Source: Rhizoclosmatium globosum
Lineage: Eukaryota; Chytridiomycota; Chytridiomycetes; Chytridiales; Chytriomycetaceae
Direction: 5' to 3'
Length of the DNA stretch: 64,000 nucleotides
Assembly: GCA_002104985.1 (NCBI GenBank)
Contig: MCGO01000034.1
Location: forward strand, 310,001-374,000
Both the position numbers and the translations under genes were made by a program. The notes under the pieces are model-generated. The model ran no database searches, had not been told where the DNA came from, and saw only the letters and a program-made list of their open reading frames with translations. Within the stretch, counting starts at the first letter, position 1, and each line of letters opens with the position of its first letter. This document shows, piece after piece, positions 9,501 through 28,020 of the stretch.

Positions 9501-10714
9501 AAATGAGCTTAACACGCCGGGTGGACCACGAAGTGCTGCATCTGAGAATGTCACTGGCCCGTTCATTGCGTTCCCTGATTATCAGCAATCTCCGTCTGCA
9601 GCAGATGACGGTCACAGTCCAAGACTTTTGGAACAATTTGGCGGATTGAGTTTGGCGAGGACTCTGTCGTCTAGTGGAACAGCGGCTGGGAATGAACCAG
9701 GTCGACGGGCTGTGTCGAAGCTTTCAATTGGAGAGAGCGAAGCTGGTATGTTGATGCTGATTTATTAGTATATATATTCTGACAAGTATTTAAGACAACG
9801 AGAATGTCACATTTGGTCCAAACACGATCCACCAGCTTCTTTACAACACAGATTCCAACTTTGATCCACTTCAAGTCTTTTTATCGTCGCTTGACCTGTC
9901 ATCTCATGTTGTCTCATTCAAAGCTCAACACATTGATCTCGACATCCTGTTGGCGCTCAGCGATACAGACCTTATGAAAGCGGGTGTGAAAGCATTTGGG
10001 GCACGGAAGCGACTCATGAATGCGATTCGGCGGTTCAATCAAGAAAAGTTTAATCGGCATAGTAGTCAACAGTTTACAACGTCGATCAGCAATACTCCTC
10101 CGTCAGTAAGGAGGCAACAAGTACAACAACAGCTGCAGCAGCAACAACAACAACAACAAAGTCCTTTGATTCATCAGCAACACCTTCAGCAGCAATTTCA
10201 GCAACAGCCTCAACAGCAACAACAACAACCTCCTCAAGGACAATCTAGCTTTATTTATAATATGCAGCAACAGCAACAGCAAAGTAACCATCCAGTCCAA
10301 GGACCTGGAGGGTTGTTAACGCCGTCTGCAACTATGTTTGACTTTTCTATGGTTCAAGGTGGGGGTAATATGGTGGGACAACCTCAGCAAAAACAACAGC
10401 AACAATTTCAACAGCAACAATACCCACAACCAAGTCCAACGCAGTCACGAATGATGCCACCTCCAGGATTAATGATGGGCCAACCGGCTACTCACCTTCA
10501 ACATACCCAACAATATATGCTGCAGCAGCAGCAACAGCCACAACAACAACAACAACAGTTTCAGCAACAATATCAACAACAATACCCTCAACTTGGCAAC
10601 CCTGTGAATTTGCAAGGACTGCCACAACAATCTGGAGTCCCTTCGTCTCCAATGGGGCCTTCATATTCCAATGCGGGGTTGAACGACAACAATCGCAAGA
10701 ATAATCGTGCGTAA
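6540..10714 (+). CDS. Bicaudal-C-like RNA-binding protein (KH repeats, SAM domain, polyQ)
   Basis: Seven exons (6540-6740, 6841-7335, 7518-7931, 7985-8194, 8243-8692, 8749-9745, 9795-10714) join in frame to 1228 codons. The second exon begins TQVSLKTNKRLIL, like the start of animal Bicaudal-C. KH modules follow; two have a canonical GxxG loop (GKKSGKINKI near residue 392 and GVGGKNIQRIMKKYG near 460), while earlier ones (VGRRRALLNRIMEDSG; LRRKIDWLITSQLQRL) are degenerate. A Pro/Gln-rich linker leads to a SAM domain at about 945-1000 (IDLDILLALSDTDLMKAG, then VKAFGARKRLMNAI), very similar to the BicC SAM that forms polymers. The tail is a long Gln-rich region (about 1035-1190), prone to slippage. 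The expected role is mRNA binding and translational control or RNP granule assembly. The intron before the SAM exon is only 49 nt. Confidence 0.85.
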
Positions 10715-14017: not shown

Positions 14018-14039
14018 TGTTTTTAAGATGAGTATTATT

Positions 14040-15038
14040 TGTGACAGGCCTCTCCGCTGGCTATGTCCTGAATCCCCGCTCCGGTCCTAGGGTTCTGGTA
14101 ATAGGCCTTTGGTAAATGCCTGCAAAAGTCCTTGCTGACTCCGAAAATGGTCCCTTGATAGGTTCGGAGGTTGAGGAACAGTATCCTTAAGGTCTAAGCT
14201 TAAGGTGGTTTAGAAACAAAATCAAGAACAACAAAACTAAACAACAACAGGGAAGGAAAGGGATAATAATAATGACAAAAGGAATAAACGAACATAAAAT
14301 AAATTCCACATCTCGCTCGCACCTGGCCTTCATGCCTTACTACAACTACTACGAGAGTCTGCACCACACCACTCCCGGTCCTCAATAAGATATAAGTATT
14401 ATGTGTTTCGCTATAAGCTCTGTTTCCAGTGCCTAAGTATACTACGCATACCGACGGAATAATAATAGCCTAATAGAGGGCAATTGACTATCCGCAGTAG
14501 GTTCTGCCGCCAGTTGAGATTCCAATACTACCTTCCACGGTCCTACCCTGCCTGAAGTACTCGCTCAACGCACCCCAACCTACTCGCCGTCTCCAGGCTC
14601 CACACATAATCACGAAAGGCCTCGCTCGCCCCTTTGGTCTGCTCTCGCTCACTTTCGCTCTATACTTATCTACAACGCTATAGCTAGATCCCTTTTCTTG
14701 GTTTGTTTATCGTTGCGGCTCAGGACTCGTCGCGCCCACTTCTTCAGCTCGTCGCCGTCGATGTCCTTTTACAACGCGTCCTCCGCCCTCCCAGGGTAAC
14801 TGGTGTCCACGGTGCCTACCCCGTTGTGGATCCCGAACTGGTCTCGCGTTATTAGAACGCGCTGCTGCCGTCACAGACTGGTGACTTTCAACTTATCAGC
14901 AACTTTTATTCCATTGTTCACTTGTCGCTCCCCAACAATCAAACAATAATCCAAAAATCCAGACCTAAAATAATAAATAAAGAAAACCCTCCCAATAGTA
15001 AGTACAACTCTCAACCCCATGTCGATTTGTACGCGACA
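14040..15038 (-). repeat. 3' LTR (coding sense), 999 bp
   Basis: Near-perfect copy of 26964-27964, shorter by two homopolymer bases (A4 at 14277-14280, G2 at 14377-14378). On the plus strand it is followed after two bases by TGGCCCCTGAAACA (15041-15054), which looks like a tRNA primer-binding site but lies at the wrong end for the coding orientation. Confidence 0.95.
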
Positions 15039-15273
15039 GTTGGCCCCTGAAACAATCTGTATCCGCCCCTTGGATACATCCCACAGGTAACCCCTATCAG
15101 GAAGATACTCATACCCTCCAATCCCTAGAACTCCAAAACAAATCCCAAAAAAACTCCTAACTTGGCGCCAAAACCCTTCTCAGGCAAAAGACTCCAAGCC
15201 ACAGAAAAACTAAATAATCAACCAATAAACCAATCCTCCTATACTCCCAAACAACTTCAACCAACTCCTCCTC
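15039..15273 (-). other. Retrotransposon 3' untranslated segment
   Basis: 235 bp between the Pol stop and the 3' LTR. A convincing polypurine tract directly before the LTR in the coding sense is not seen (the adjacent sequence is TTTCAGGGGCCAAC). No ORF. Confidence 0.6.
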
Positions 15274-16422
15274 CTAGGACTGCCTTGCAGCCCTCTTGTC
15301 AGCTAACCTCCCTGACGTTCTTGTTCCCTCCTGAGGAACTCTTGGTTCAATTGCTTTATTCCTCCTCTTCTCCTTCACTTTACCTCCTCCCACTGCAACA
15401 TTAACCTTTGCTGGCAGTATGACTGCAACATCCTCCAGGTCGACAGCTGGTGGCAATAAAGGGTCATCCCTATAATAAGCATCCACATGGCGCTTAAAAC
15501 TCTTATAAATAGGTCCTCCGTCAGCCTTTTGTTTCTCCCAAAAGATACGACGGGTTTCAGCAGATAGGGTGTCATCATTATACTCCCTATTCTGGTTAGC
15601 CTTCTGGCCTTTGAACTTGACCAGGTAATAGAACATTCCATTCCTCCTTGTAACACTTACAACCTTCTCTATTTCATATAGAGGGTCTGTTCTGTCTTCA
15701 GGGACAAAAGTGGGATCCATCTTTTCTCTAAGTGCAATACTCTTTGTTATAAGGGGCTTATGGACATTAACAGGTCTCCTTGTCAGGATGATTGAGTGCT
15801 TCTTCCACTCAGCAAGCTCCTCCTCAAAGGTTTTGCCATAGAGCTCCTCAATGTCCTCCAAGGAATCCACAGGTAAACGTACAGAGTAAGGTCTCAAGCG
15901 CCCAACATGCACTTTCCTAGATACAGGTTCACCTCCAGGGAAAGTTTCAATGACAGTGAACACTGTACCTGAATCTCCTTTGGATTGATCAACAATCCTC
16001 ACTGGCCCAACCCATCTGGGCACAAATTTCTTCTGGGTCTTCAACCTCAGGGCTTCACTTTCCAGGGGTACAGCAAGCCAGGCTTGGTCCCCAATGTCAA
16101 ATTCATGCGGGCCTTGGTCCATATCCTCAGACCTCTGTCTCAGAGCTTCCTTCTTTGCTGCAACCTTGGCTTTAATAACAGACTGTGCAGCTTGTAAGCC
16201 TCTCAGGATCTCCTGGATCACTACACGCTTCTGTTGTTCACGTTTCTTCTTAGCGTCCTCGCTCAATTCAGCTTCTTCAAAGTCTGATACTTCATCAAGG
16301 AATACCTCATAGGAAACCTGAGTCTTCTCAGTTTCTGCCCTCCAAATAAACAAGTGTCTCATAGTCTTTATTTCCAAAGGCGTAAACTGGTATATTGACT
16401 CTCCAGAATTTGCCGGAGCCAT
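15274..16422 (-). CDS. Retrotransposon Pol: integrase C-terminal domain and chromodomain-like segment
   Basis: 382 codons, of which the first about 30 overlap the previous frame. A helical region rich in Lys/Glu/Ala (AKKKREQQKRVVIQEIL; VIKAKVAAKKEALRQRSE) leads to the SH3-like integrase C-terminal domain (FDIGDQAWLAVPLES; RWVGPVRIVDQ; VHVGRLRPYS, equivalent to the GPY/F module). After a linker there is a chromodomain-like stretch (PLYEIEKVVSVTRRNGMFYY followed by LVKFKGQ), suggesting targeting to modified chromatin as in chromoviruses. The aromatic cage is only partly evident. The end is basic (RTSGRLADKRAARQS). Confidence 0.82.
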   Translation of the reverse strand: MAPANSGESIYQFTPLEIKTMRHLFIWRAETEKTQVSYEVFLDEVSDFEEAELSEDAKKKREQQKRVVIQEILRGLQAAQSVIKAKVAAKKEALRQRSEDMDQGPHEFDIGDQAWLAVPLESEALRLKTQKKFVPRWVGPVRIVDQSKGDSGTVFTVIETFPGGEPVSRKVHVGRLRPYSVRLPVDSLEDIEELYGKTFEEELAEWKKHSIILTRRPVNVHKPLITKSIALREKMDPTFVPEDRTDPLYEIEKVVSVTRRNGMFYYLVKFKGQKANQNREYNDDTLSAETRRIFWEKQKADGGPIYKSFKRHVDAYYRDDPLLPPAVDLEDVAVILPAKVNVAVGGGKVKEKRRNKAIEPRVPQEGTRTSGRLADKRAARQS

Positions 16423-17365
16423 CCCACATAGGCTGCGGTTTTAACACATAAGGTTCTTTTGAACGAGGGTCAAACAAAGTGTGAACCTTGTCAATATAAG
16501 AGCCATCTCCCAAGTAACTCCTATAGGTACAACTAAGCACCCCTACAGTGTCTTGTCTTCCCAAGCTCACAAATGCTTTCCCCTTGTTGAATTCTAGGTC
16601 CTCTGGTGGAGGACCAATGGTAATAGTCTTATCTCTACTATATATTGCAACAAACCTTGCAACAGGTACAGTACCCATCCTAGTGTGGAAGGTATGTTGT
16701 TCGCCTGGTGAGAAACGATAAACACTGTCTCTCAAGGCCGCAACACTTCCGTCTTTCAGGTATATGCAACTTGGCATTCTGTCACTTCTTGACTTCTTCT
16801 TAGGGTCATAGACCAAACACAAGATGTCTAAGTCATGTTTTTCAAAGATTTCTTTCAGTGTAGTCCACAAGGGTTGATCCTCCTTATGGTAACCGTATAA
16901 GTGTCTGCAACACTTATCATTAAACTGCTCCAAACTAACAAACTGTGCAATAGCAATGTTAGGATATTCTCTACTTATTGGTTCTTTTATCCTCTGAATG
17001 TGAGTATTGGTTTCCAGCTCATCAGGTCCTGCCCTGAGGGGTTCAGCTACAACTATATCAAAGTCATCTTTACCAACTGGTACATAATCTGGGGGGAACA
17101 TGTGGACCTTAGGGCTAAGGCCATAGAACATGTCTGATGGTACGCGAGCGTCTCGCCCATGCCACATGAAGAATGGGGTCTCATTTGTAGTTGAGTGCTG
17201 ATGTGTGCGATAAGCAAACATTACAAACGGGAGTATCTCTTCCCAGTCATCAAATTCATTTCTATCAATGTAAGCTCTTATCTCCTGTGACAGAGTCTTA
17301 ATGAACCGTTCACAAGGTCCAAGTGACTGTGGGTGGTAAGGAGCTGTGAAAGTCTTTTCAAACCC
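16328..17365 (-). CDS. Retrotransposon Pol: integrase core end (catalytic Glu) plus large unassigned insertion
   Basis: Open frame directly after the TAA. It holds the rest of the core (TAPYHPQSLGPCERFIKTLS; MFAYRTHQHSTTNETPFF; LMW-type WHGRDARVPSD). Instead of the usual short helical linker to the integrase C-terminal domain, some 200-230 residues intervene (from about VPVGKDDFDIVV to AFGNKDYETL). They contain a mixed alpha/beta-looking sequence with LDILCLVYDPKKKSRSD, MPSCIYLKDGSVAALRD and TLFDPRSKEPYVLKPQPMW. I recognise no domain. The frame shifts by one base near 16330-16345 to continue in the next ORF. Confidence 0.75.
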   Translation of the reverse strand, partial: GFEKTFTAPYHPQSLGPCERFIKTLSQEIRAYIDRNEFDDWEEILPFVMFAYRTHQHSTTNETPFFMWHGRDARVPSDMFYGLSPKVHMFPPDYVPVGKDDFDIVVAEPLRAGPDELETNTHIQRIKEPISREYPNIAIAQFVSLEQFNDKCCRHLYGYHKEDQPLWTTLKEIFEKHDLDILCLVYDPKKKSRSDRMPSCIYLKDGSVAALRDSVYRFSPGEQHTFHTRMGTVPVARFVAIYSRDKTITIGPPPEDLEFNKGKAFVSLGRQDTVGVLSCTYRSYLGDGSYIDKVHTLFDPRSKEPYVLKPQPMWDGSGKFWRVNIPVYAFGNKDYETLVYLEGRN

Positions 17366-18352
17366 TTACATTCTACTTAAAACTTCCAATAGCTCACTAT
17401 CTAATGGTGGACCATTATCAGTATGCAAAAACACAGGTATACCTATCCTGCAAAATATTTCTGATACTAAGGCTCGACATACAGTCTCTGCTGTTAGGTT
17501 GGGGATAGGCACTGCTTCAGCCCATTTGGTCATGCTGTCTACATAAGCCATCACATAAGTATTTCCCTTTTGGGATTCCTTAAGTGGTCCAATGAAGTCT
17601 AAGAACACTCTCTCATTAGGGTATTCTCCTAGCGGGATGGGATGCAGGAAACCTGTCTTTGCAACAAAGTCCTTTGACTCATTACAGATCTTACATGTCT
17701 TCACATGTCCTTTCAGGTCTTTTATTATGGTTGGCCACCAATATCTTTCCAATAGTGCTGGTAACGCTTTGGCAGCAGAGAAGTGTCCTGCATACAAATC
17801 ATCATGATGTTGATACAAGATCTTGCGACGCATACCATCAGGTACACAAAACGCAATTCTTCCTGCACTTCTCCTTACTGTTGTAGTGGCAACATCTCTA
17901 ACAATAAAGAGAAGTCCTTTATTATCTATAACATAGTCCTTACTCAATTCAGCCATTTCTTCAATGGTTGAGTCCTCTGGTACTGTCCCATTCTCTCTGA
18001 ACCTCATGATAGGTCCAAAGAATTCATCAGAGAGTTGCATCTCTCTGGCTTCTTCATAGGATGTTTCTCCTTGACCTAAAGAAATACAACCCAAGTTGGT
18101 TTCCATTGCAAAAGTATAAAACTCCTCTAAGTTTCTAGCAGGGCTAGTGTCACTTTCTTTGTTATCAAGCCAACTTGTTGAGTTCAACAAGTAATTTCCT
18201 CCATCACTAAGGTGAAGTTCAAGTCTTAGATGGTCACTACCAGTTGACAAAGAATCTATTCTTATGTCGAAATGTTTAGGGTCAATCTTCTTGTCTACCA
18301 AGATATGATCTATTCTCCATAGGGGATATTCCACTTGGTTCTGGGCTTTCAA
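17366..18352 (-). CDS. Retrotransposon Pol: end of AP endonuclease, integrase zinc finger and first part of DDE core
   Basis: 328 codons (the first codon here is TTG, not a natural start). It begins with the last endonuclease motifs (WRIDHILVDKKI; SDHLRLEL). After about 110 residues comes an integrase HHCC finger (HHDDLYAGH...ALPALLERYWWP...CKICNES). The catalytic core starts at VFLDFIGPL (first Asp) and FLHTDNGPP (second Asp). The frame then meets TAA at 17368-17366 and continues in the same frame, with the catalytic Glu in LGPCERF. Counting the stop as one residue, Asp to Glu spacing is exactly 35, so only a substitution, not an indel, separates the two halves. Confidence 0.88.
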   Translation of the reverse strand: MKAQNQVEYPLWRIDHILVDKKIDPKHFDIRIDSLSTGSDHLRLELHLSDGGNYLLNSTSWLDNKESDTSPARNLEEFYTFAMETNLGCISLGQGETSYEEAREMQLSDEFFGPIMRFRENGTVPEDSTIEEMAELSKDYVIDNKGLLFIVRDVATTTVRRSAGRIAFCVPDGMRRKILYQHHDDLYAGHFSAAKALPALLERYWWPTIIKDLKGHVKTCKICNESKDFVAKTGFLHPIPLGEYPNERVFLDFIGPLKESQKGNTYVMAYVDSMTKWAEAVPIPNLTAETVCRALVSEIFCRIGIPVFLHTDNGPPLDSELLEVLSRM

Positions 18353-18972
18353 AAGCCAAGTCCCTCCATCACTTTAGGGTGTTTAACACGAAAACCATCG
18401 TGGAAGTTCTCCATCATAGAGGCAAACCAATTCCTCTCTTCTGAGGTTATTGTTGATGGGAACAAGTCTTTCATCTCTTCAACCACAACTGCAACATCTT
18501 CTGTTGCTGGTGCAATATTCATATCGCCAATTAATATGGTTACGTAACCTTCCTCTCTGAGGGAGTCACAGTAATCCTTTAAGTGCTTGAGGAAAGTCAT
18601 CTTATAGTCGTGACGCTCTGACTTCCTCATTCCACTAGGAACGTAAGTGTTCACAATTGCCAATTTATCAAGGAATAAGGTTTGCACCCTACCTTCATCA
18701 CTCAGCAGGTGCTCTGGAGCATTGCTCCTAGTCAGGCTCTCCAGACCTCCAGATGTTCTTACTTCCACTTTACCATGTAGTTCTTTTCTCCAAAGGACTC
18801 CAACTCCACAATGGCCAGTTCCAGTGTCATTGAATGAGTAGTTCCAATTTTCTAAGTCATTCATAGCTGTGAATAACTTCTTACTCTTTGGGTCTTTTCC
18901 CATCCTTGTTTCCTGCAGGCATACAACAGAACAGTCTTGATCATCCAAGAATTTCTCTAAGACCTCAGTCAT
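18349..18972 (-). CDS. Retrotransposon Pol: AP endonuclease (ExoIII/APE1-type) domain, main part
   Basis: 207 codons, joined to the preceding frame at an ATGA overlap and to the following frame at a T4 run (18351-18354 region). Signature motifs are in the correct order: VVCLQETRMG (metal-binding Glu), HCGVGVLWRKEL, the GRVQTLF strand, TYVPSGMRKSERHDYK (active-site Tyr region) and ILIGDMNIAP (catalytic Asp and Asn). The rest of the fold (WRIDHILV, SDHLRLEL with Asp and His) is in the next frame. The QET, YVP, GDxN, WRxD and SDH set matches repair-type AP endonucleases and the endonuclease domain of non-LTR retrotransposons; LTR elements do not normally carry it. All catalytic residues I can check are present, so activity is plausible. 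Confidence 0.85.
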   Translation of the reverse strand: MTEVLEKFLDDQDCSVVCLQETRMGKDPKSKKLFTAMNDLENWNYSFNDTGTGHCGVGVLWRKELHGKVEVRTSGGLESLTRSNAPEHLLSDEGRVQTLFLDKLAIVNTYVPSGMRKSERHDYKMTFLKHLKDYCDSLREEGYVTILIGDMNIAPATEDVAVVVEEMKDLFPSTITSEERNWFASMMENFHDGFRVKHPKVMEGLGF

Positions 18973-20924
18973 AGGAACTTCTGAAGGGCCTTATCCTCTA
19001 TGAACTTCTTCAAAAGGCTTCTCAAACCATTGATATTCCAGGTTGAGATATTTATGCTCTTAGCTGTGTATCCTCTTTTAGGCTGTTTTGGGACTTTTCT
19101 CAAGTCCTTAACGCTCAACACTTGTTGTTTTGTTTTAGTATCCTTTGCTAAACGTTTTGAAATGTCAGTCATCAATTCGTTAACTGTTCTTTGGTTATCA
19201 TCCATGAAACGTTGAATACTTCTTGAGTATAATCTTTGGAACTCTTTCTTCGCATGAGTTTTTTGTGTGTCTGTCTCTGCTAATGAGTGGAGGATGTAAG
19301 TTTCATACAATGTTTCAAGGGGTGGGTTTTCAATCCCTAGGTCAGAGTTCTGACCCTCGCCCCATTTTTTAATCATTTTCTTCATCCTCGAAGAAATCTC
19401 ACTGAGGTTTATTGTTTCCTCTGGTGTCTTATGGATATCCACTCTGGAGAGTGCATCTGCAACAACTTGTTTCTTTCCAGGAGTGTGGACCAAAGTTATG
19501 TCATAGTTTGCGAGGGAGTAAGCCCATCTTGCAAACCTTCCAGTCAGCTCTCCTCCTTTGAATAAGGGTATCAAAGCTGAGTGGTCCGTATATACAGTCA
19601 CTGGTCTGTCAAACACATAACGGTCGAAACAGTTAATTGCCCAAACAACGGCAAGACCTTCCCGATCTGTGTTTGAGTACCTCTGCTCAACCTCAGTTAG
19701 CATCCGACTAATAAATGCAACTGGTTTTCTCTCACTTGTTTTGTCTTTGCTTTTTGCATAGAGGGCTGCACCCAATGCAGTTCCTGATGCATCACATTCA
19801 ATGATGTATTCTTCATCTTCACCTGGTAAGTAAAGGATCATGTCACTTTTCAGTTTAGAAAGAAGCTCCTTGAAAGCATTCTCACAGGCATCAGTCCACA
19901 ACCATGACTGATCAGCTTTAGTTAACTGGTATAAAGGTGCAGCCACTTGTGCAAAACCTTTAATGAATCTCCTAAAATAGTTTCCAAATCCTAAGAATGA
20001 TTGTAACTGCTTTACAGTTTTTGGACGTGGCCAGTTGCTTAAAGAAGCAATCTTATCTGGGTCGCGTCTAAGTCCATCCTTTGAGATACGGTGTCCTAAG
20101 AATGGTAATTCTGCGTGGAATAGGGCACATTTTGAAGGCTTAATCTTCAAATTGTGGTCATACATCCTTTCAAACACAAGTTCAAGGTGTTTAAAGTGGT
20201 CTTCCTCTGTGTTAGAATAGATAATAACATCATCGATGTAAACAAGTGCAAACTTGTACTTGTAACCTGCTAAAACAGAGTCCATCAATCTTTGGAAAGT
20301 TGGTGGTGAATTTGTCAAACCAAAAGGTAACTTCCTAAATTGGAACAGTCCTTGTGAGGAAATAAAGGCAGTTTTTTCTTTCCCTGTGTCATCCATAGGG
20401 ATCTGCCAGAATCCTTGCAAAAGGTCAATAGAGGAGAAGTAGTGTTTGCCTCCAACAGCATCAAACAACTCTTCAATTTTTGGCAATGGGTATCTATCAG
20501 GTATTGTGATCTCATTAAGTTTTCTGTAGTCGACACAAAAACGCCAAGATCCATCTGACTTCTTAGTCAAGACTACTGGTGCTGAATATTGGGATAAAGA
20601 TGGTTCTATTATTCCATCTTTCAACATCTTTTCTATGTGTTCCCGCAGAATAGCAGTACGTCCTGCTCCTTCTGGGTAAGGTGGTCTATGGGGTACCCTT
20701 GCACCTTCCTTCTCCTGGATGATATGAGCTGGCATTCTCTTAGTACCTGTGACAACATCAGGCTTGAAAATATTTACATATTTTCTTATCAAAGATATCA
20801 GCCTTTCTTTAGTTTCAGGTGTGTAAAGTGAATCCATATGATCCAATTTCATCTTCTTAAGGACTTCTTCATCAGAGCCATACAGCTCTGGTATATAATC
20901 CATTTTTTTCTTCCTTTGAAGCAT
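18969..20924 (-). CDS. Retrotransposon Pol: reverse transcriptase, RNase H and the start of an AP endonuclease
   Basis: 651 codons. RT motifs appear in order: KKSDGSWRFCVDYRKLN (about 121-137), FSSIDLLQGFWQIPM (163-177), LPFGLTNSPPTFQRLMD (199-215) and the catalytic YIDD box (229-232), all typical of Ty3/gypsy. RNase H follows: IIECDASGTALGAALYA, then VYTDHSAL, then VADALSRV. After about 100 residues of charged linker, where a chromovirus would begin integrase, the frame instead reads INISTWNINGLRSLLK, the first motif of exonuclease III/APE1 endonucleases, and stops (TGA overlapping the next ATG). The endonuclease continues in the adjacent frame, so a single Pol polyprotein is likely. Confidence 0.92.
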   Translation of the reverse strand: MLQRKKKMDYIPELYGSDEEVLKKMKLDHMDSLYTPETKERLISLIRKYVNIFKPDVVTGTKRMPAHIIQEKEGARVPHRPPYPEGAGRTAILREHIEKMLKDGIIEPSLSQYSAPVVLTKKSDGSWRFCVDYRKLNEITIPDRYPLPKIEELFDAVGGKHYFSSIDLLQGFWQIPMDDTGKEKTAFISSQGLFQFRKLPFGLTNSPPTFQRLMDSVLAGYKYKFALVYIDDVIIYSNTEEDHFKHLELVFERMYDHNLKIKPSKCALFHAELPFLGHRISKDGLRRDPDKIASLSNWPRPKTVKQLQSFLGFGNYFRRFIKGFAQVAAPLYQLTKADQSWLWTDACENAFKELLSKLKSDMILYLPGEDEEYIIECDASGTALGAALYAKSKDKTSERKPVAFISRMLTEVEQRYSNTDREGLAVVWAINCFDRYVFDRPVTVYTDHSALIPLFKGGELTGRFARWAYSLANYDITLVHTPGKKQVVADALSRVDIHKTPEETINLSEISSRMKKMIKKWGEGQNSDLGIENPPLETLYETYILHSLAETDTQKTHAKKEFQRLYSRSIQRFMDDNQRTVNELMTDISKRLAKDTKTKQQVLSVKDLRKVPKQPKRGYTAKSINISTWNINGLRSLLKKFIEDKALQKFL

Positions 20925-21192
20925 CCTTTGTGGGATGGGAGTTCATAATAGAGTTACCCTCCTCTTGTAATTCCTCCATTGCGTCAACAAAAGTTTCTTC
21001 AGTGACATTGAGTCCTTTAATAAACTCTTTATCCTTGTTCATGCGCTCTTTCCAGAGGCGTGTCTTTTCTTGCAAACGTGTTTGCTTCTTACTTAAGGCT
21101 TTGTGAAGCTTTATTTCTTCTTTAGGTTCATTAATAGATTGAGCCCTTCTCTCAATTATGTCATCTGCCATTTTATCAACATTAGCCATCAA
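20872..21192 (-). CDS. Retrotransposon linker ORF between protease and reverse transcriptase
   Basis: 106 codons in the same frame as ORF3, starting seven codons after its TGA. The sequence is charged and helical (KEEIKLHKALSKKQTRLQEK; FVDAMEELQEEGNS). It runs into an A7 run at about 20904-20910; removing one A (or a +1 shift) joins it directly to the reverse-transcriptase frame, whose own first ATG is at 20924. It most likely represents the N-terminal part of Pol rather than a separate protein. Confidence 0.6.
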   Translation of the reverse strand: MMANVDKMADDIIERRAQSINEPKEEIKLHKALSKKQTRLQEKTRLWKERMNKDKEFIKGLNVTEETFVDAMEELQEEGNSIMNSHPTKDASKEEKNGLYTRAVWL

Positions 21193-21213
21193 TCGGCGGA
21201 AGTCTCGGTGTGT

Positions 21214-23094
21214 TCACACAGGTTTCTGCTTGATTGATTTCAAAAATGTATTTAAGTTACTGCGATCTTTAAACATATCGCGATTCATCTTTATAGAATC
21301 CACCGGATCAATAAAGAATTGATCTAAGTCATATCCCTCATACGCATCAAGTAACTCTGCGTCATAATAGACATCAAGGTTTTCATCATCTATGTCAGAA
21401 TCACTATTATCCAATGGTGTTTCAATTGAATCAAATTCATCAACTAAGACTGGGGAGACCTGTTGATGGTTCTCCTGATCAGAGTACGGTTTCCCTGTCT
21501 CCAAACAGTGTAGGAATGATTGGTTATCTACCGGATTGTGTAATCCAGCCATCATTGCAAAGTGGATCAAGGTATCTTGGTCATTCTCATCAATTGTGGA
21601 AGGGACATCCAGTATGGGTGTATTGGCACTTAACAAGACTTCAGCCAAAGGGAAACCTGCATGAAGCTTGATCTTTTCAGATCCTACATAAGTTACTTCC
21701 AACGGCACTTCGCCATTAGCAATATCTTCCGTAGTGTATACAGTTCTTGCAACAAGAATGCCTTTTTCTGGTAATCCCGAAAGAGTTTGTGCGATACAAT
21801 TTTCAAAGACTTTACTCTTTGGTATAAGTCGGTCAGTTTTGACTTTGACTCTATATCTCATAGATGGTACTAAGGTCATAGTTTTAGTAACACTCAAACG
21901 TGCATTCTCACTAGGTGTATATGTGGCAAAGTACTTTAAGGGGACACTAAGCCGTTTACCACTCTTCAGTGGGGGACCATAGAAGAGTCTATCAATTGAG
22001 AAACAGATGTCCATGTTGAACTGTTTACATTGAGGTGTTCCTAAAATAACATCTCGAGGAAGTCCTGGAACTACAGAAAACTTCACAGTTTTCGCAATTG
22101 CTTTGCTTCCTCCCAGGTACACTTTAATATAGCAGTAGCCAACTATTGTCATTGATCCAGCAACTCCTCTTGTCTGGTGCAATGTGGTGTATTTGAATAA
22201 CACAGGTTGATCCTTCATGCTTTCATAAAAAGCAAGGGAAATAGAGGAATGGTTGGCTCCAGTGTCTACTAAAGTATCCTCAACATAGATACTTCCAATG
22301 TAAGTGCTAATTGTAGCCACTTTATAGATTCGACTATCACCATCCTCATCTTCAGTGGTATATGTGAAGAGGGGTCTGTATCGTCTGTAATCACAGCCGG
22401 GATTATTACAGAGCTCTGCTTGAGCAAAGGAGTCATCTTCAAAGAGGCCAGTAACTACTTCATCGAAGCTGACCTTCGGTGTTACTTTCTTTATAGGGTT
22501 AAATTTTACCACTTGAGGTATTTTTCGAGTGAAATACGCTGGACCCTCTCCACTTCTGTGGTTTGGTTCAGAATGGTCCTCACATACTGTTGATTCAGGT
22601 ACAGCTGACCAGCGGTGCCTGTGTTCCAAGTTTCCAATTTGAAAGGTGAATGCCTGTGACGCAGGGTCAACAGTCTCCATTGAGGACAGTTCTGTGCTAT
22701 ACCTGGGTATTTGGTACAATGGAGTTTCGATTAAAACATTGTTTTTATTAAACTCCAACTCAATAGATGATACTGAAGGTGTCAGGACACTCAAAACTTC
22801 AACAAAAGGTAAAGATTCTGGGAAATTTGGAATAATATTAGGCGTAAAAATAGTAACAGGAAACAAGTCTGTAGTAGAGTCTGACGCTTCATTGACCTGT
22901 AGGATTTCATGATTAGAAGAATTAATGCAGGTATTTGTTTCATTACCACTTTTCTCGCGCATCATCTCACGAAATCTTTCAGCCAATGGGCAGTCAGCAT
23001 GACCATGGCCATATTCATGGCACAGGCTACACTTGAATCCTTTCATATCTCCACGCAACGCAGTTTTGAAGCGAGTCCGATCGGCGGCAGTCAT
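21214..23094 (-). CDS. Retrotransposon ORF3: CCHC zinc knuckle and retropepsin-like protease
   Basis: 626 codons. A CX2CX4HX4C knuckle sits at residues 22-35 (CSLCHEYGHGHADC), normally the C-terminal part of Gag, so ORF2 and ORF3 together look like a split Gag-Pro. The aspartic protease active site is at 277-279 (VDTGANHSS), followed by the flap-like GVAGSMTIVGYC and the LPRDVILGTPQ block (the ILG motif of retropepsins). The C-terminal 150 residues are acidic and unassigned (DSDIDDENLDVYYDAELLDA). The frame ends in TGA at 21214-21212 but continues open in the same frame into the next linker. Readthrough, a mutation or an internal start could each connect it to pol. Confidence 0.85.
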   Translation of the reverse strand: MTAADRTRFKTALRGDMKGFKCSLCHEYGHGHADCPLAERFREMMREKSGNETNTCINSSNHEILQVNEASDSTTDLFPVTIFTPNIIPNFPESLPFVEVLSVLTPSVSSIELEFNKNNVLIETPLYQIPRYSTELSSMETVDPASQAFTFQIGNLEHRHRWSAVPESTVCEDHSEPNHRSGEGPAYFTRKIPQVVKFNPIKKVTPKVSFDEVVTGLFEDDSFAQAELCNNPGCDYRRYRPLFTYTTEDEDGDSRIYKVATISTYIGSIYVEDTLVDTGANHSSISLAFYESMKDQPVLFKYTTLHQTRGVAGSMTIVGYCYIKVYLGGSKAIAKTVKFSVVPGLPRDVILGTPQCKQFNMDICFSIDRLFYGPPLKSGKRLSVPLKYFATYTPSENARLSVTKTMTLVPSMRYRVKVKTDRLIPKSKVFENCIAQTLSGLPEKGILVARTVYTTEDIANGEVPLEVTYVGSEKIKLHAGFPLAEVLLSANTPILDVPSTIDENDQDTLIHFAMMAGLHNPVDNQSFLHCLETGKPYSDQENHQQVSPVLVDEFDSIETPLDNSDSDIDDENLDVYYDAELLDAYEGYDLDQFFIDPVDSIKMNRDMFKDRSNLNTFLKSIKQKPV

Positions 23095-26033
23095 GTTGTG
23101 GGTTTCTTTGGAGAGTTGAGCACTAACAGCGGCATGTCAACATCAGAAAGTAAGGTAGCTCGTTCTTTCTTGGGATCCACATTAAACTGTCGGTTTGATG
23201 GTTTCCGTTCGCGCTCAACCTCTCGTTCGCGACTTTGTTCGCGTGCTTGAAACCTGGACGTTCGCTCGACAAGGGTAGCTACGTCAGATGCAACACTGCG
23301 AACAGTATTCTCAAGACCCTTTTTCCAAGCCTCGGTGTTACCACTTTCGTCGTCAGAGTCGCTGTTCATTCCTTTTTTCTTTGCCAAAAATTCAACGATG
23401 TCATCAAGTTTAACAGAAGAATCCCGGTAATCCTTCTCCACTCCCGCTGAATTTTTAATTGGTCCATTAACAACGGCTCTCCACTTGCTAGGATGAGACT
23501 TTGACAGAGCCGTCATGAAAACTGAACGAAGTTCGTTTGATGTCAATTTGTAAGAACCAAGTTGTTGGTTTTCTGTAACTAATTCTAGACAGGCAACACG
23601 TGCATTGTTTCCATTAATAGCGAAATTACGAATGGCTTCAGCTCGAGTGGCCATAGACAAATCAGTAGATACTAGAATTTTCCAGTTTTTCTCAAAATTA
23701 GCCCACGTAGAGTCAGTTTCCAATGCGTCGCGGAAAGTTTCCATTTTCTTTCCTTTAGAGTACTGGAATAGAGGGACGATGGCCGACATTAAGTCGTCGG
23801 GTGATTGGAACTTTGGGGTCAATCCCGTTGCAAACCGCGTTTTCAAGTCATTAATTAGGTTGTAGAAACGATGAGGTTTTGAAGGATCAATGGGAGTACT
23901 TTTAATTCGATCCTTAGCTTCAACCCATTCACTTTGGCGGTCCAATCGAAGACCAATAGTTTCAATACTCGTAGAGAGGGTAATTGGGTCAATCATTTTG
24001 GACTCAATCTTATAAAAACCGTCGTCCAAGATGTCGCGGGCCGATGCGGCTATTCCAACAGCCTGTTTACTAATGTCCGTCAAGGTCAAGACCTTGTTCT
24101 CAGGTACACTCGCAAACAAATTTTTGATCAATTTTAAATAATTATCAGGAGTATATCCCGCGAGTGACAAACTAAAGTACGTGTTTAGGGCGTCATACAC
24201 GAGACTCTTGATGTCGGAATCCATGACTTCAGTGATCCCGTCGTCCTCATACATCCGTGTATCTGCTTTAAGAAGAACGTATCTTTTACCAGTGCCCAGG
24301 TCAACGGTGATGGTTCCAGGTTTTGCGACTGGTATTTGGCTTTTACTAATGAGTACGATCGATATTAGAAGAGCAAGGACCAGGCTGAAAACAATTATAT
24401 ACAGCGATACCTTCTTGTTGTCATGCCACTCATTGTGATTATTTGCACTGACTGGTAATGCGAAGAAGAGGATTCCGAGCAAGGAAATGTCAAGGGTTGG
24501 AATTGTCGCTTGACGTTCTCTTCTTTCGAGGCACGAGGTCCGGACCCATACAACCAAAACACTTAACATATTGACAAGGAGTACTCTAACTTTATTCGAA
24601 CTGAAAAACAAAAGAGAAAGTATACAACACGAAAGTCCTTTAGCGTTCGCTATGGTAGCCACGGCTGTTACGGTTGGATTGTTGACGAAGTCCTGTAACT
24701 TGAACGTACAATAGATGTTAGAGAGAGTATCACTCCAACTTAACAACTTACTATTAAAGGTTTCCAGGATATTAGGCTTTTGACGCTTCTGGAACTTGCG
24801 GTAGGCTTTATCAGCCCTCGCTTGATCCTTATGGAGTTCTTCGTTCTTAACATGAGTAGACCTTCCGGCGATTGCGGCAGCTCCAAGCTCGGCAGCAACG
24901 GCGGGAGCCATCACATGGATTCCCGATGCCATCTTGAACTGGAACAGGTTTTGCATCGCTTTGAACCCAGCGAAGTCCATGGCTGTAGCGGATCTCTGGA
25001 GTGCCTGGTTTCTGAAGAAGGCGTCTCCTAAAGGACAAAGTCCGTTAGTAACAACGTCGGTACCCAAACAAGGGGGTAAAATCGTGTATAGACACGAGGA
25101 CATCAGTGATAACCACTGGATACAACAGTCGAAGCTCGACTGGGAAGACGCGGTGTACGCGAAACCAAATAAAATAAATAACATCGCTACACTCAGAACT
25201 CCTCCAACCCAAACTAACAAAAAGGGATAAGACGACTTACTCGTTTTGCGAGACTCTTCCTTAGTAGGCGTAGCCGTCGAAGTCGTGGTGGCTCGTTTAT
25301 CGGCTGGCAGAGGCAGTGGTGTTTCGTCGATAGGTTCGCCATCGGAGTCGAGGACCACAGTCGCATCCCTTTGGCGCTTCCTGCTACTGTAGAGGTCGTC
25401 GAGCTCTTGTTGAGTAGAATCCAAGGTAGCTGCGTATGACTGAAGGTGCTCCTCCTGCACTTTGACTTTAGTTTTCAAGACACTAACTTGCTCCCGTAGC
25501 GCCTTGCAGTTGGTTTCAAAGAACCCGATCTCGTCCAGCGCCTTTTCGTTGTCTTTGATGGCGTCCGCTAGGGCATCTTTCTTGAGTTTGTAAGACGCGT
25601 AAGTATCCTCGAATTTCTTGATGTTCTTCTTATTTTCTTTCTTCAAGCTTTCGAGAGCAACTTCCAGCGTTTCGGCTTTGGCTTCGGCGGCAACAAGACG
25701 TTCGTTGTTCAAGTCCAATGTTTTGTCCTTGAGGTCGATCATGGCGATGGTTTCGGAGAGGTTCTTGCGGAGTGTTTGTATCTCCTTATTCTTAACGTCA
25801 ATTTGGTCTTCTAGGGACGGCTCCATGTCAACGTCTTCGTCTTCGACGGGACTATCGTCGGCAGATTGCGATACGTCGGTGGCGTCTGGCTCCAATGAGG
25901 TGTGGTCTTCGTCGATGCCGTCTTCAAGTTCCTTTTCGGTGTAGAGGCGGTCGGCTCGAACGGCTCCTTTGGCTCCCAAAACAGGAGAGGCTGGCACGGT
26001 ATCGGCAGTCATGAGGTCTTCGGTAGTAGACAT
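23091..26033 (-). CDS. Retrotransposon ORF2: coiled coil, membrane segments and Gag-like region (unspliced reading)
   Basis: One open frame of 980 codons. Residues 1-230 are acidic and coiled-coil-like (heptads with KNKEIQTLRKNLSETIAMID). Two hydrophobic regions follow: one beginning YPFLLVWVGGVLSVAMLFIL and another, VSLYIIVFSLVLALLISIVL. The C-terminal third looks like a Gag capsid: LINDLKTRFATGL, MSAIVPLFQYSKGKKMETF and FLAKKKGMNSDSDDESG, then an Arg/Glu-rich segment. Two good spliceosomal introns lie inside the frame (25240-25028 and 24751-24693), so the full frame can only come from unspliced RNA. The stop overlaps the next start as ATGA (23094-23091), compatible with termination-reinitiation, frameshifting or a one-base error. 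Membrane segments in a Gag precursor are unusual. Confidence 0.7.
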   Translation of the reverse strand: MSTTEDLMTADTVPASPVLGAKGAVRADRLYTEKELEDGIDEDHTSLEPDATDVSQSADDSPVEDEDVDMEPSLEDQIDVKNKEIQTLRKNLSETIAMIDLKDKTLDLNNERLVAAEAKAETLEVALESLKKENKKNIKKFEDTYASYKLKKDALADAIKDNEKALDEIGFFETNCKALREQVSVLKTKVKVQEEHLQSYAATLDSTQQELDDLYSSRKRQRDATVVLDSDGEPIDETPLPLPADKRATTTSTATPTKEESRKTSKSSYPFLLVWVGGVLSVAMLFILFGFAYTASSQSSFDCCIQWLSLMSSCLYTILPPCLGTDVVTNGLCPLGDAFFRNQALQRSATAMDFAGFKAMQNLFQFKMASGIHVMAPAVAAELGAAAIAGRSTHVKNEELHKDQARADKAYRKFQKRQKPNILETFNSKLLSWSDTLSNIYCTFKLQDFVNNPTVTAVATIANAKGLSCCILSLLFFSSNKVRVLLVNMLSVLVVWVRTSCLERRERQATIPTLDISLLGILFFALPVSANNHNEWHDNKKVSLYIIVFSLVLALLISIVLISKSQIPVAKPGTITVDLGTGKRYVLLKADTRMYEDDGITEVMDSDIKSLVYDALNTYFSLSLAGYTPDNYLKLIKNLFASVPENKVLTLTDISKQAVGIAASARDILDDGFYKIESKMIDPITLSTSIETIGLRLDRQSEWVEAKDRIKSTPIDPSKPHRFYNLINDLKTRFATGLTPKFQSPDDLMSAIVPLFQYSKGKKMETFRDALETDSTWANFEKNWKILVSTDLSMATRAEAIRNFAINGNNARVACLELVTENQQLGSYKLTSNELRSVFMTALSKSHPSKWRAVVNGPIKNSAGVEKDYRDSSVKLDDIVEFLAKKKGMNSDSDDESGNTEAWKKGLENTVRSVASDVATLVERTSRFQAREQSREREVERERKPSNRQFNVDPKKERATLLSDVDMPLLVLNSPKKPTT
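24640..26033 (-). CDS. Alternative spliced product of retrotransposon ORF2 (inferred)
   Basis: Exons 26033-25241, 25027-24752 and 24692-24640 join in frame to 373 codons. Intron 1 (213 nt) has GTAAGT, the perfect branch site TACTAAC about 20 nt before the end, and TTTAG. Intron 2 (59 nt) has GTAAGT, CTCTAAC and TTACAG. Splicing removes the first membrane segment and ends the protein soon after in a basic tail (RLRQQSNRNSRGYHSER). Intron 1 is a multiple of three and lacks stops, like an exitron; intron 2 is not, so splicing it switches frame to the stop at 24642-24640. The product is a soluble coiled-coil protein without the Gag-like region. The splice sites are seen in the sequence; that both forms are made is inference. 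Confidence 0.6.
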
Positions 26034-26276
26034 GGTGAGTTGTTATTGAATTACAAGTTGGGATTAACAGTGAATGTCAGGACCTGTCTTAAATGGCCTC
26101 CCATGTCAATCTTGGACAAATCGATGACGGTCGAGACTTCTGATCGTCGCGTTTACTACTATCTCAATTCGGATATTTCGTCCTTAGATCGATTTGAATC
26201 TTCAAAGTTACAACTAATAAACAGTCTTAAATGCCAATTGGTTCAATATTCACAAGATTTACTAACTTCGGCTTTA

Positions 26277-26765
26277 TTAGATTATATTGTTTCCGATGTT
26301 CTTCAAACAAACGAACATCGTCTCAAAGAAGTACTGAAGTTCCCATTCCTCTTCACTGATCAAGTCCGGGATATCAGCGAAAGGATCTTCACCGTCTTCG
26401 ACCAGTTCTGGTGGCTCTGTGGATACATCCGAAAGAGCGTCAGCGTCCTCTTGAGTGGAAGTATCATCGAGTTCGTTTGAATTAGCAATTATTCCATTTT
26501 CGGTTCCATAAAGAATAAAAGATTCTAGTTCACGATTCCTTTGGTTGTTGTGTGAGATCTCCAAATAGCGTCGAAAGACATGGTTAGTTTCGTCGTTGTC
26601 GAATAAGCTCTCGGTCGGTAAGAATGGTAGTGATATGGTCCAAAACACATCAGCGAGGTCAATTGGAGGTATAAACATGTTGGTTGAATTGATTTCCTCA
26701 ACTAGAGTGTGAAGGTCTGGACCTTTCATTCTCAATGATAATCTCACCCAAAACTTAAAGTTCAC
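26277..26765 (-). CDS. Retrotransposon ORF1, small acidic protein
   Basis: First ORF after the 5' LTR, 162 codons. The N terminus is hydrophobic/basic (MNFKFWVRLSLRMKG), followed by LHTLVEEINS and a Pro/Leu segment. The second half is strongly acidic (DDTSTQEDADALSDVSTEPP; EDGEDPFADIPDLISEEEW). I recognise no domain. The last dozen codons (after EEEWELQ) look non-coding in composition and a GTACTT donor-like site lies there, so the true 3' end may be spliced. A plus-strand ORF overlaps its end (see findings). Accessory proteins are not standard in Ty3/gypsy elements. Confidence 0.55.
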   Translation of the reverse strand: MNFKFWVRLSLRMKGPDLHTLVEEINSTNMFIPPIDLADVFWTISLPFLPTESLFDNDETNHVFRRYLEISHNNQRNRELESFILYGTENGIIANSNELDDTSTQEDADALSDVSTEPPELVEDGEDPFADIPDLISEEEWELQYFFETMFVCLKNIGNNII

Positions 26766-26963
26766 TCAAACTTCGTTTATTGAAACTCGAAATACGAGAA
26801 TAAATATATAATTAAGGTGTACTTACCTTATAGCTCAGGTATAAGCCTGATTTCCTCAATACTCAATGGTATTGGTTTCAACAATCCTAAGATTGGAATA
26901 GACCTCCAACGTCTAGTAAATGAACTGATTCCAACAGTTCCACTTTTGAATTGGGCCCCCCTC

Positions 26964-27964
26964 TGTGACAGGCCTCTCCGCTGGCTATGTCCTGAATCCC
27001 CGCTCCGGTCCTAGGGTTCTGGTAATAGGCCTTTGGTAAATGCCTGCAAAAGTCCTTGCTGACTCCGAAAATGGTCCCTTGATAGGTTCGGAGGTTGAGG
27101 AACAGTATCCTTAAGGTCTAAGCTTAAGGTGGTTTAGAAACAAAATCAAGAACAACAAAACTAAACAACAACAGGGAAGGAAAGGGATAATAATAATGAC
27201 AAAAAGGAATAAACGAACATAAAATAAATTCCACATCTCGCTCGCACCTGGCCTTCATGCCTTACTACAACTACTACGAGAGTCTGCACCACACCACTCC
27301 CGGGTCCTCAATAAGATATAAGTATTATGTGTTTCGCTATAAGCTCTGTTTCCAGTGCCTAAGTATACTACGCATACCGACGGAATAATAATAGCCTAAT
27401 AGAGGGCAATTGACTATCCGCAGTAGGTTCTGCCGCCAGTTGAGATTCCAATACTACCTTCCACGGTCCTACCCTGCCTGAAGTACTCGCTCAACGCACC
27501 CCAACCTACTCGCCGTCTCCAGGCTCCACACATAATCACGAAAGGCCTCGCTCGCCCCTTTGGTCTGCTCTCGCTCACTTTCGCTCTATACTTATCTACA
27601 ACGCTATAGCTAGATCCCTTTTCTTGGTTTGTTTATCGTTGCGGCTCAGGACTCGTCGCGCCCACTTCTTCAGCTCGTCGCCGTCGATGTCCTTTTACAA
27701 CGCGTCCTCCGCCCTCCCAGGGTAACTGGTGTCCACGGTGCCTACCCCGTTGTGGATCCCGAACTGGTCTCGCGTTATTAGAACGCGCTGCTGCCGTCAC
27801 AGACTGGTGACTTTCAACTTATCAGCAACTTTTATTCCATTGTTCACTTGTCGCTCCCCAACAATCAAACAATAATCCAAAAATCCAGACCTAAAATAAT
27901 AAATAAAGAAAACCCTCCCAATAGTAAGTACAACTCTCAACCCCATGTCGATTTGTACGCGACA
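26964..27964 (-). repeat. 5' LTR (coding sense), 1001 bp
   Basis: Begins TGTGACAGGCC and ends GTACGCGACA on the plus strand (TG...CA ends). It is identical to the other LTR except for one extra A (A5 at 27201-27205) and one extra G (G3 at 27302-27304). Transcription of the element should start within this copy. The base right after it in the coding sense is GAGGGGGGCCC, not a recognisable TGG primer-binding site. Confidence 0.95.
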
Positions 27965-28020
27965 TATTTCCTTCATTTTATATAAAAATCAACATCCTTC
28001 ATTCATACACCTTAAATTAT

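Follow-up and report, generated by a model that had tools for sequence, protein, structure and literature searches.

In the textbook view, an LTR retrotransposon makes its DNA and inserts it with no more than reverse transcriptase (RT), RNase H, and integrase. AP endonucleases are borne by non-LTR retrotransposons such as L1 and Tad. In fungal Ty3 elements, for example PosPlaTy3 of Postia placenta, a dUTPase sits at variable places in Pol (PMC2864245, excerpts). The Juno and Vesta LTR elements of bdelloid rotifers have a DEDDy exonuclease as ORF3; excerpts of PMC5408684 describe nuclease capture at least twice, and no significant departure from neutrality in these ORF3s. Kuafuorterviruses are LTR elements of animals in which Exo_endo_phos is reported "sporadically" and "may be derived from hosts" (PMC11673190, excerpts). 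That survey covered 8001 genomes, 2772 of them fungal, and placed the lineage in 169 eumetazoans; the RT motif is given as IADD, VADD, or LADD. Within the excerpts of these papers, this "sporadic" occurrence is the one published precedent for Exo_endo_phos in LTR elements.

The element in the window

We analyzed a window of 64,000 nucleotides from Rhizoclosmatium globosum, in which an LTR retrotransposon had been predicted at 17366..20924, with an AP endonuclease between RNase H and integrase. The full element, with its LTRs, is larger than this span and occupies 14040-27964 on the minus strand (13.9 kb). Its features, in window coordinates, are:

14036..14039, no strand: left target-site duplication TATT, read from the flanks
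14040..15038, minus: 3' LTR (1001-column match to 26964-27964, 99.8%; TG..CA ends)
15274..16440, minus: C-terminal Pol frame (reading frame), with a chromodomain-like stretch at about 15589-15678 (weak Pfam match)
16328..17620, minus: integrase core with its C-terminal extension, interrupted by a frame break near 17366
17672..17845, minus: integrase H2C2 zinc domain (Pfam)
18200..19060, borders approximate, minus: ExoIII/APE1-type EEP domain, over three frames (Pfam and PDB matches; genome match C268:328478-328960)
19503..19814, minus: RNase H (Pfam RT_RNaseH)
20085..20564, minus: reverse transcriptase (Pfam RVT_1; YIDD by eye)
21214..23136, minus: frame with a zinc knuckle (by eye) and an aspartic protease (DTGAN; weak PF13650 match at about 22036-22275, E 0.0029, below the cut-off)
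23091..26042, minus: gag-like frame of 983 aa, assigned by position and without a Pfam gag match
26964..27964, minus: 5' LTR (from the LTR pair comparison; TG..CA ends)
27965..27968, no strand: right target-site duplication TATT, read from the flanks

This is a Ty3/Gypsy LTR retrotransposon: it has a pair of 1001-bp LTRs, a 4-bp target-site duplication, and an integrase that follows RT and RNase H. The nearest structure in the PDB to the RT is that of Ty3 (4ol8), with E = 1.8e-67 for L003, an A1 relative of the window copy, and 6.7e-25 for L013, an A2 relative.

The predicted order of domains was borne out. On the frames of the window, Pfam recovers, in order, RVT_1 (2.9e-36), RT_RNaseH (2.5e-29), Exo_endo_phos (PF03372, 5.2e-9), Integrase_H2C2 (4.1e-17), and rve (1.2e-8), and in all six of the intact relatives that we scanned, RT, RNase H, EEP, and H2C2 lie in one uninterrupted frame (rve was recognized in four of the six). 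In the window itself the EEP domain is in pieces: its N-terminal motif, NINGLRS, closes frame 20942-18969, the middle frame (18990-18349) matches positions 22-165 of the 225 in the Exo_endo_phos profile, and the last part of the domain (WRIDHIL, SDH) opens frame 18373-17366. Frame breaks occur at several places in the window copy. When it is aligned to the copy on C86 over 6.8 kb, there are 21 mismatches and gaps open 18 times; part of these frame breaks may be assembly errors. A chromodomain after the integrase, which was also predicted, is not a certain feature, as its matches are weak: E is 0.059 for the window copy and 0.013 for L033, and both fail the Pfam cut-off.

The EEP domain across the genome

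Among the 60 H2C2 matches in the genome, EEP is directly upstream (within 1 kb) at 41, more often than chance would give, and 36 of these 41 have a spacing of 304-447 bp between the two domains, so the search of other copies that had been proposed did recover the order. At another seven matches EEP is farther up, before RT. EEP is thereby present in one of two positions in Pol at 48 of the 60, and these represent two divergent Ty3 lineages. Many copies have a stop-free, single open frame across EEP, of up to 3901 codons. Some contigs of this assembly are near-duplicates.

Copies without EEP had been raised as an objection to the original prediction, and they do occur, but EEP is kept in many copies. 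Of the other H2C2 matches, 11 have RT but no EEP and one has neither. One of the 11 is an A1-family copy that lacks EEP through a clean 1.17-kb deletion; the four that were read of the other ten (L045, L046, L048, and L049) are on other branches. Since these 10 Ty3-type matches and the deletion copy are in the same genome, the host does not require the enzyme of every such element. Judging from sequence, many copies and several families carry both an integrase and a putative ExoIII/APE1-type nuclease, which is not a one-off captured exon.

The original prediction likened this domain to the nicking enzymes of non-LTR elements, and that likeness was not supported: by its sequence matches, we classify the domain as ExoIII/APE1-type, not LINE-type. 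TIGR00633 (NCBI's xth, with a cut-off of 99.05 bits) is passed by 34 matches, at 99.9-136 bits; the frame-broken window copy scores 89.8 bits and the B3 group scores 68-69 bits, which are below the cut-off, and the B3 scores are inside the LINE-like range. For the four LTR-borne EEPs that we compared to the PDB, the matches were ExoIII/APE structures only, with no LINE endonuclease among them, while a control LINE EEP from the same genome (one of five LINE-like EEPs, L050-L054) matched only LINE-1-type endonucleases. LTR-borne EEPs match cellular exonuclease III or APE1 over the whole domain, at 25-35% identity and with the same active site. The AlphaFold model of the window's middle EEP frame has a predicted pLDDT of 78.7 and pTM of 0.80. 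Separately, this genome has 19 LINE-like EEP-RT clusters, which are candidates as LINEs.

In an alignment of 22 non-identical LTR EEPs, N68, E96, Y171, D210, N212, D283, D308, and H309 (APE1 numbering) are kept. The only exceptions are at the ends of frames, in L027, L037, and L009; for instance, L009 has T in place of D308, just where its broken frame stops. The LINE-like EEPs retain almost identical active-site columns, so these columns alone do not separate the types. Position 70 is N in the LTR EEPs, as in ExoIII, and is A, P, or L in the five LINE-like EEPs. Between L003 and L018, identity is 64% in RT, 61% in EEP, 60% in the integrase core, and 30% and 32% in the linkers (pS 0.79-0.87, EEP pN 0.26). 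Across the four pairs that we compared, synonymous change is near-saturated (pS 0.71-0.91). EEP is well above both flanking linkers in three of the four pairs and less clearly above them in the fourth (L003/L006, the most similar pair, has a linker at 79% versus 82% for EEP). EEP is clearly below RT in three of the four pairs, and likewise in a further pair, L007/L030 (73% versus 94%).

Origin and possible role

For the EEP tree, we used domain matches that span at least 200 model positions, with identical rows taken once, and 22 chosen from 240 homologues (P0002-P0241); a full host APE was absent. The RT and integrase trees used spans of at least 250 and at least 180. All three trees largely agree on the A1 subfamilies. 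The A1 and A2/B EEPs are at separate places in the EEP tree, but AU tests do not reject a single clade for them (p = 0.30). The tests also allow LTR and LINE-like EEPs to share a clade (p = 0.357), the EEP-less Ty3 rows to form a single outgroup clade (p = 0.436 and 0.45), and the EEP-bearing RTs to form a single clade with Ty3 added (p = 0.18). The trees therefore fit one capture or two. A host APE exon had been suggested as a possible source. We compared one host-like exon, L056, which looks APE2-like by eye: its match to the A1 EEP covers only 73 aa, at 34%, versus 32% over 283 aa for a bacterial ExoIII, and this comparison is alongside a tree without a full host APE. Outside this genome, a search with EEP plus linker against 5.8 billion proteins, presumed to be mostly prokaryotic or viral, gave one match (P0001), which is something else; IMG/VR, presumed to be of similar composition, gave none. 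Neither search speaks to the rest of the eukaryotes.

The likeliest account, to which we give an even chance, is that a Ty3/Gypsy lineage took up an AP endonuclease of the exonuclease III type and kept it in Pol, where it mends the cDNA, at abasic sites or at 3' ends that are blocked, before ordinary integration. We infer that EEP would be made as part of the polyprotein, packaged together with RT and integrase, and act on the cDNA of the element while reverse transcription is under way or soon after it. By cutting at abasic sites and clearing 3' ends that are blocked, it would supply RT with 3'-OH ends for extension, and integrase would then insert the mended cDNA in the usual way. 3'-phosphodiesterase/phosphatase activity is known for the ExoIII/APE family. 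The abasic-site role rests on analogy: EEP may resemble the dUTPase of some retroviruses and fungal Ty3 elements in protecting cDNA under a load of uracil or abasic damage. The Pfam scans showed neither a uracil glycosylase nor a dUTPase next to EEP. An AP endonuclease alone would cut the cDNA and not complete its repair, which counts against a repair role.

Insertion itself looks ordinary. We read 4-bp duplications (TATT, CTGG, GAGG, and ATGT) at four of five insertions, and the same element was inserted independently at different sites on C13 and C203. The B2 copy at C146 has LTRs of 1436 bp (99.7% identical) and no clear duplication. The LTRs and duplications point to integrase-mediated insertion, and the alternative integration route that was originally suggested gained no supporting sign. 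We think it quite unlikely that EEP assists integration by nicking target DNA as a LINE endonuclease does or by processing the gaps that integrase leaves. The two enzymes are encoded together, usually less than 1 kb apart, but TG..CA ends and duplications are what integrase leaves, the domain is ExoIII-type and not LINE-type, and at the seven matches with EEP before RT it does not adjoin integrase. A bolder version, that two Ty3 lineages captured the nuclease independently, and one later moved it within Pol, because it joins in integration (at target gaps or cDNA ends), seems improbable to us; if true, it would be integration chemistry of an unfamiliar kind for retrotransposons, as we know of no integrase-plus-AP-endonuclease route in the literature. 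A rather unlikely but more substantial possibility is that EEP acts on cDNA ends or on what is left of a primer, trimming the one or removing the other as a 3'-5' exonuclease or an RNase H-like nuclease, since priming in these elements would be unusual. ExoIII-family enzymes do have 3'-5' exonuclease activity. Just inside the 5' LTR, the sequence does not start with TGG in the window or in the two A2 copies that we read (C13 and C203), and the first 16 or 14 bases there match exactly at three genome places each (C268, C86, and C78; C13 and C203 twice), with no further place turning up; the places on C86 and C78 and the second one on C203 are known from the match alone. A search for a self-priming complement gave a longest match of 8 nt. 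However, at C368 a B1 copy bears EEP even though a TGG-like site lies a single base beyond its LTR, and the priming motif was judged by exact match only.

EEP might instead do no work for the element, as a fused repair gene that is carried along. That several pairs conserve it less than RT, and that a deletion copy exists, would fit, but the retained active site, the conservation above linkers despite near-saturated synonymous change, and the presence in two divergent lineages make this very unlikely. We consider it refuted that a nested LINE, a neighboring host gene, or an assembly chimera put EEP between RT and integrase: the broken window copy and the near-duplicate contigs could raise this suspicion, but the long intact frames, the narrow spacing, and the independent insertions contradict it. 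A nested LINE or host exon is rejected on the intact frames, the placement at 41 of 60 matches, and the sequence type of the domain.

Comparison with known systems

Within a single genome, two divergent Ty3 lineages maintain a repair-type nuclease in Pol, which makes less sharp the usual division between LINEs with AP endonucleases and LTR elements with integrases. These elements display domain capture and relocation inside Pol. They also offer a natural system for asking if reverse transcription of LTR elements is held back by abasic damage or blocked ends, with the EEP-less Ty3 elements and the deletion copy as built-in controls.

The window element resembles Ty3/Gypsy elements (Ty3 and chromoviruses) in its LTRs, its order of protease, RT, RNase H, and integrase, its 4-bp duplication, and its Ty3-type RT, and differs in the extra ExoIII-type domain in Pol, the weak chromodomain, and the length. 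L1- and Tad-type elements also combine an EEP superfamily nuclease with RT, but theirs is L1-EN-like and N-terminal to RT, and they lack LTRs and integrase. Cellular exonuclease III and APE1 share the whole domain and the active site; the window's EEP sits in a retroelement polyprotein. As described in the excerpts, PosPlaTy3 likewise has a captured cellular enzyme for uracil or DNA integrity at a variable position in Pol, but this is a dUTPase and not a nuclease (PMC2864245). Juno and Vesta are LTR elements with a captured nuclease, but in the excerpted account it is a separate ORF3 with the unrelated DEDDy fold (PMC5408684). Finally, the RT motifs here, by eye, are YIDD in the window, FVDD in B1, and LQDD in B2, unlike those given for Kuafuorterviruses in the excerpts of PMC11673190.

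The window copy

The element in the window (G000:C268:310001-374000, in a genome of 56.9 Mb in 420 contigs) lies between two LTRs that are 99.8% identical across 1001 columns (BLAST). The LTRs start with TG and end with CA, and TATT is present on each flank. Its features are:

14040-15038, element on - strand: LTR (direct-repeat search and BLAST of the two ends)
26964-27964, element on - strand: LTR (same methods)
26042-23091, - strand: open frame, gag by position, 983 aa
23136-21214, - strand: zinc knuckle and DTGAN protease motif, both by eye (Asp_protease_2, E 0.0029)
21213-20872, - strand: open frame without a named domain
20942-18969, - strand: open frame with RT, RNase H (RH) and the EEP start
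18990-18349, - strand: open frame with the EEP middle
18373-17366, - strand: open frame with the EEP end, H2C2 and the start of the integrase core
17365-16328, - strand: open frame after the integrase-core start
16440-15274, - strand: last open frame

The original prediction placed an AP endonuclease between RNase H and integrase (IN). Pfam bears out this order, with RT, RNase H, Exo_endo_phos (PF03372, or EEP), H2C2 (the integrase zinc domain), and rve in sequence on these frames; the chromodomain that was also proposed is only hinted at. This copy is interrupted in several frames. Compared to the copy on contig C86, it is 99.3% identical over 6.8 kb, with 21 mismatches and 18 gap openings, so assembly error may account for part of the damage. 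The gag-like frame (window 23091-26042) has, by eye, long hydrophobic stretches, which are unusual for a capsid protein. On the left flank of the element is a CAA/CAG repeat run (window 10114-10592), perhaps a glutamine-rich host gene.

Identity of the nuclease domain

The EEP of L003, a relative from the window's group (A1), matched exodeoxyribonuclease 5cfe (3.5e-22), chloroplast AP endonuclease 8ka3, and further ExoIII/APE1 chains in PDB. The EEP of L013, from another EEP-bearing group (A2), matched 5j8n (1.1e-23), and those from group B3 (6e-11) and the window's middle frame (9e-13) likewise matched ExoIII/APE1 chains. No LINE endonuclease was among the sequences matched by L003, L013, B3, and the window (51, 49, 51, and 50 sequences, E ≤0.01). 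As a control, one of five LINE-like EEPs from this genome matched nine sequences, of which seven bear the name of LINE-1 or its ORF2 and the others are LR1 and LTX, which we take to be variants of the same endonuclease.

For TIGR00633, the xth (exonuclease III) family profile, 34 matches pass the cut-off of 99.05 (best A1, 136; A2, 131, 117, and 106; B2, 131; B1, 121.5). B3 falls under the cut-off at 68-69, and the LINE-like EEPs score 33-85. The active site is retained in 22 non-identical LTR EEPs except for L027, L037, and L009, whose frames end early (in L009 the D308 column, which lies at the frame end, holds T). The five LINE-like EEPs have nearly all of these columns in common with the LTR EEPs; position 70 differs, being N in LTR EEPs and ExoIII but A, P, or L in LINEs. 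The PDB matches and the xth scores uphold the claimed ExoIII/APE1 identity, and we are nearly certain that the element is Ty3/Gypsy and that its Pol bears a nuclease of ExoIII type.

Where database homologues of the domain on its own carry a name (among the best 120 of 174 and the best 120 of 2431 proteins under 1e-5), it is exodeoxyribonuclease or exodeoxyribonuclease III; identity to these listed matches is 25-35%. A database protein of 959 aa, P0001 (source lgn), has an N-terminal ExoIII domain followed by a group II intron-type RT (RVT_1, RVT_N, GIIM); it could be a genuine fusion, or else two neighbouring genes read as one.

Distribution, history, and constraint

A profile search of the contigs gave 83 matches to PF03372, 60 to H2C2, and 132 to RVT_1, which we clustered by strand and distance. 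Clusters with integrase were RT-EEP-IN (32), EEP-RT-IN (4), EEP-IN without an RT match (10), RT-IN (12), and IN alone (2); those without integrase were EEP-RT (LINE-like, 19), EEP alone (16), and RT alone (53). These counts can include allelic pairs, since there are near-duplicates among the contigs: a rhodopsin locus occurs twice (C194:16380 and C399:561637, 99.9% identical), which suggests haplotype duplicates in the assembly. C13 and C203 represent two independent insertions; their flanks differ, and their duplications are CTGG and ATGT.

Counting both PF03372 and xth matches, an EEP lies within 1 kb upstream of 41 of the 60 integrase matches and farther up in 7; another 11 have RT with no EEP match, and one has neither. 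The RT-to-IN distance is 853-1041 bp in all 11 EEP-less cases (five of which, L045-L049, were read individually) and 1873-2430 bp in the 33 with an RT match and an EEP within 1 kb. Uninterrupted EEP-containing frames reach 2867 (C43), 3275 (C130), 3609 (C113), and 3901 (C114) codons.

Other copies have the order RT-RH-EEP-IN, in both A1 and A2. In B1 and B2 the order is EEP-RT-RH-IN, with integrase still last (L028 and L029 on C368 and C412; L021 and L022 on C146 and C347), and likewise in B3 (L059 on C301), whose Pfam EEP score of 22.4 bits is just under the cut-off of 24.5. Unbroken copies of this type have open frames of 1415-1873 codons.

A2 and B form a single clade in the RT and IN trees (100/100). 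A1 is a separate clade (84/99 for RT, or 100/99 with Ty3 added; 90/89 for IN), and Ty3 and EEP-less elements of this genome branch between the two. The EEP tree has an A1 clade (100/100) and an A2+B clade (97/85). Since A2 and B have a common EEP at different places, the EEP most simply would have relocated within Pol. A1 and A2/B may have captured it in one event or in two: the AU tests are compatible with a single clade, either of the EEPs (p = 0.30) or of the EEP-bearing RTs (p = 0.18), neither being rejected.

Pairwise protein identities of the EEP, its bordering linkers, and RT indicate that the EEP is under constraint, though often less than RT. Between L003 and L018, where synonymous change is close to saturated (pS 0.79-0.87), identity is 64% for RT, 61% for EEP, and 60% for the integrase core, versus 30% and 32% for the linkers. 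The corresponding values for EEP, RT, and linkers are 43.5%, 57%, and 25 and 30% for L003/L007, and 49.6%, 70%, and 39 and 38% for L013/L017. The contrast is small in the closest pair, L003/L006 (82%, 91%, and 71 and 79%), and the EEP is clearly faster in L007/L030 (73% vs. 94% for RT). Copies lacking the EEP had been named as evidence against the prediction, and an A1-family copy, L047 (G000:C384:148900-151400), does have a clean 1.17-kb deletion that includes the EEP. Outside the deletion it matches its relatives at 97-99% identity, and its RT frame is also broken within RNase H, ahead of the deletion. The RT-RH-EEP-IN arrangement is real and general in this genome, and the EEP is functionally constrained.

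Possible role and known systems

LTRs and 4-bp duplications imply that integrase probably inserts the element's DNA, which would leave the EEP unneeded for opening the target. The LTR is 267 bp in the A2 copy on C13. The B1 copy on C368 has an LTR of about 324 bp and the duplication GAGG, so the ordinary LTR and the 4-bp duplication extend to a B-type copy. (In this copy, C368:90809-101588, internal pieces are inverted and duplicated between the LTRs.) The B2 copy on C146 has a 1436-bp LTR (99.7% identity), and we did not find a clear target duplication at its insertion.

Enzymes of the ExoIII family are known for cutting at abasic sites, for clearing blocked 3' ends, and for 3'-end degradation. 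The most economical role, to which we give about even odds, is that the EEP would repair cDNA or clean its 3' ends while reverse transcription runs. An end-processing role also stays in play on account of the odd priming region, which adjoins the 5' LTR on its internal side: the usual TGG is absent there at window 26948-26963 and at C13:476826-476839. The first 16 bases after the window's 5' LTR occur at only three places in the genome (C268, C86, and C78), and the first 14 after that of C13 also at three (C13 and twice on C203), some of these not individually read.

The matches listed in searches of the open-access literature describe no LTR elements with a conserved AP endonuclease; an earlier description may stand in subscription papers, preprints, or repeat databases. 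A fungal LTR survey includes one chytrid and a figure with four "complex transposons" bearing added domains, and its text portions examined do not mention an ExoIII/EEP-type domain (PMC3248453). As far as the excerpts of each source go, the nearest precedent is a single sentence on Kuafuorterviruses of animals, in which Exo_endo_phos is "only present sporadically" (PMC11673190), and the ORF3 of bdelloid LTR elements is a DEDDy exonuclease, which is unrelated to the EEP (PMC5408684). From similar excerpts, the nearest functional parallels are in fungal Ty3 elements with a dUTPase captured at variable places in Pol (PMC2864245) and in retroviruses that bear a dUTPase or for which packaging of uracil glycosylase has been proposed (PMC4261571).
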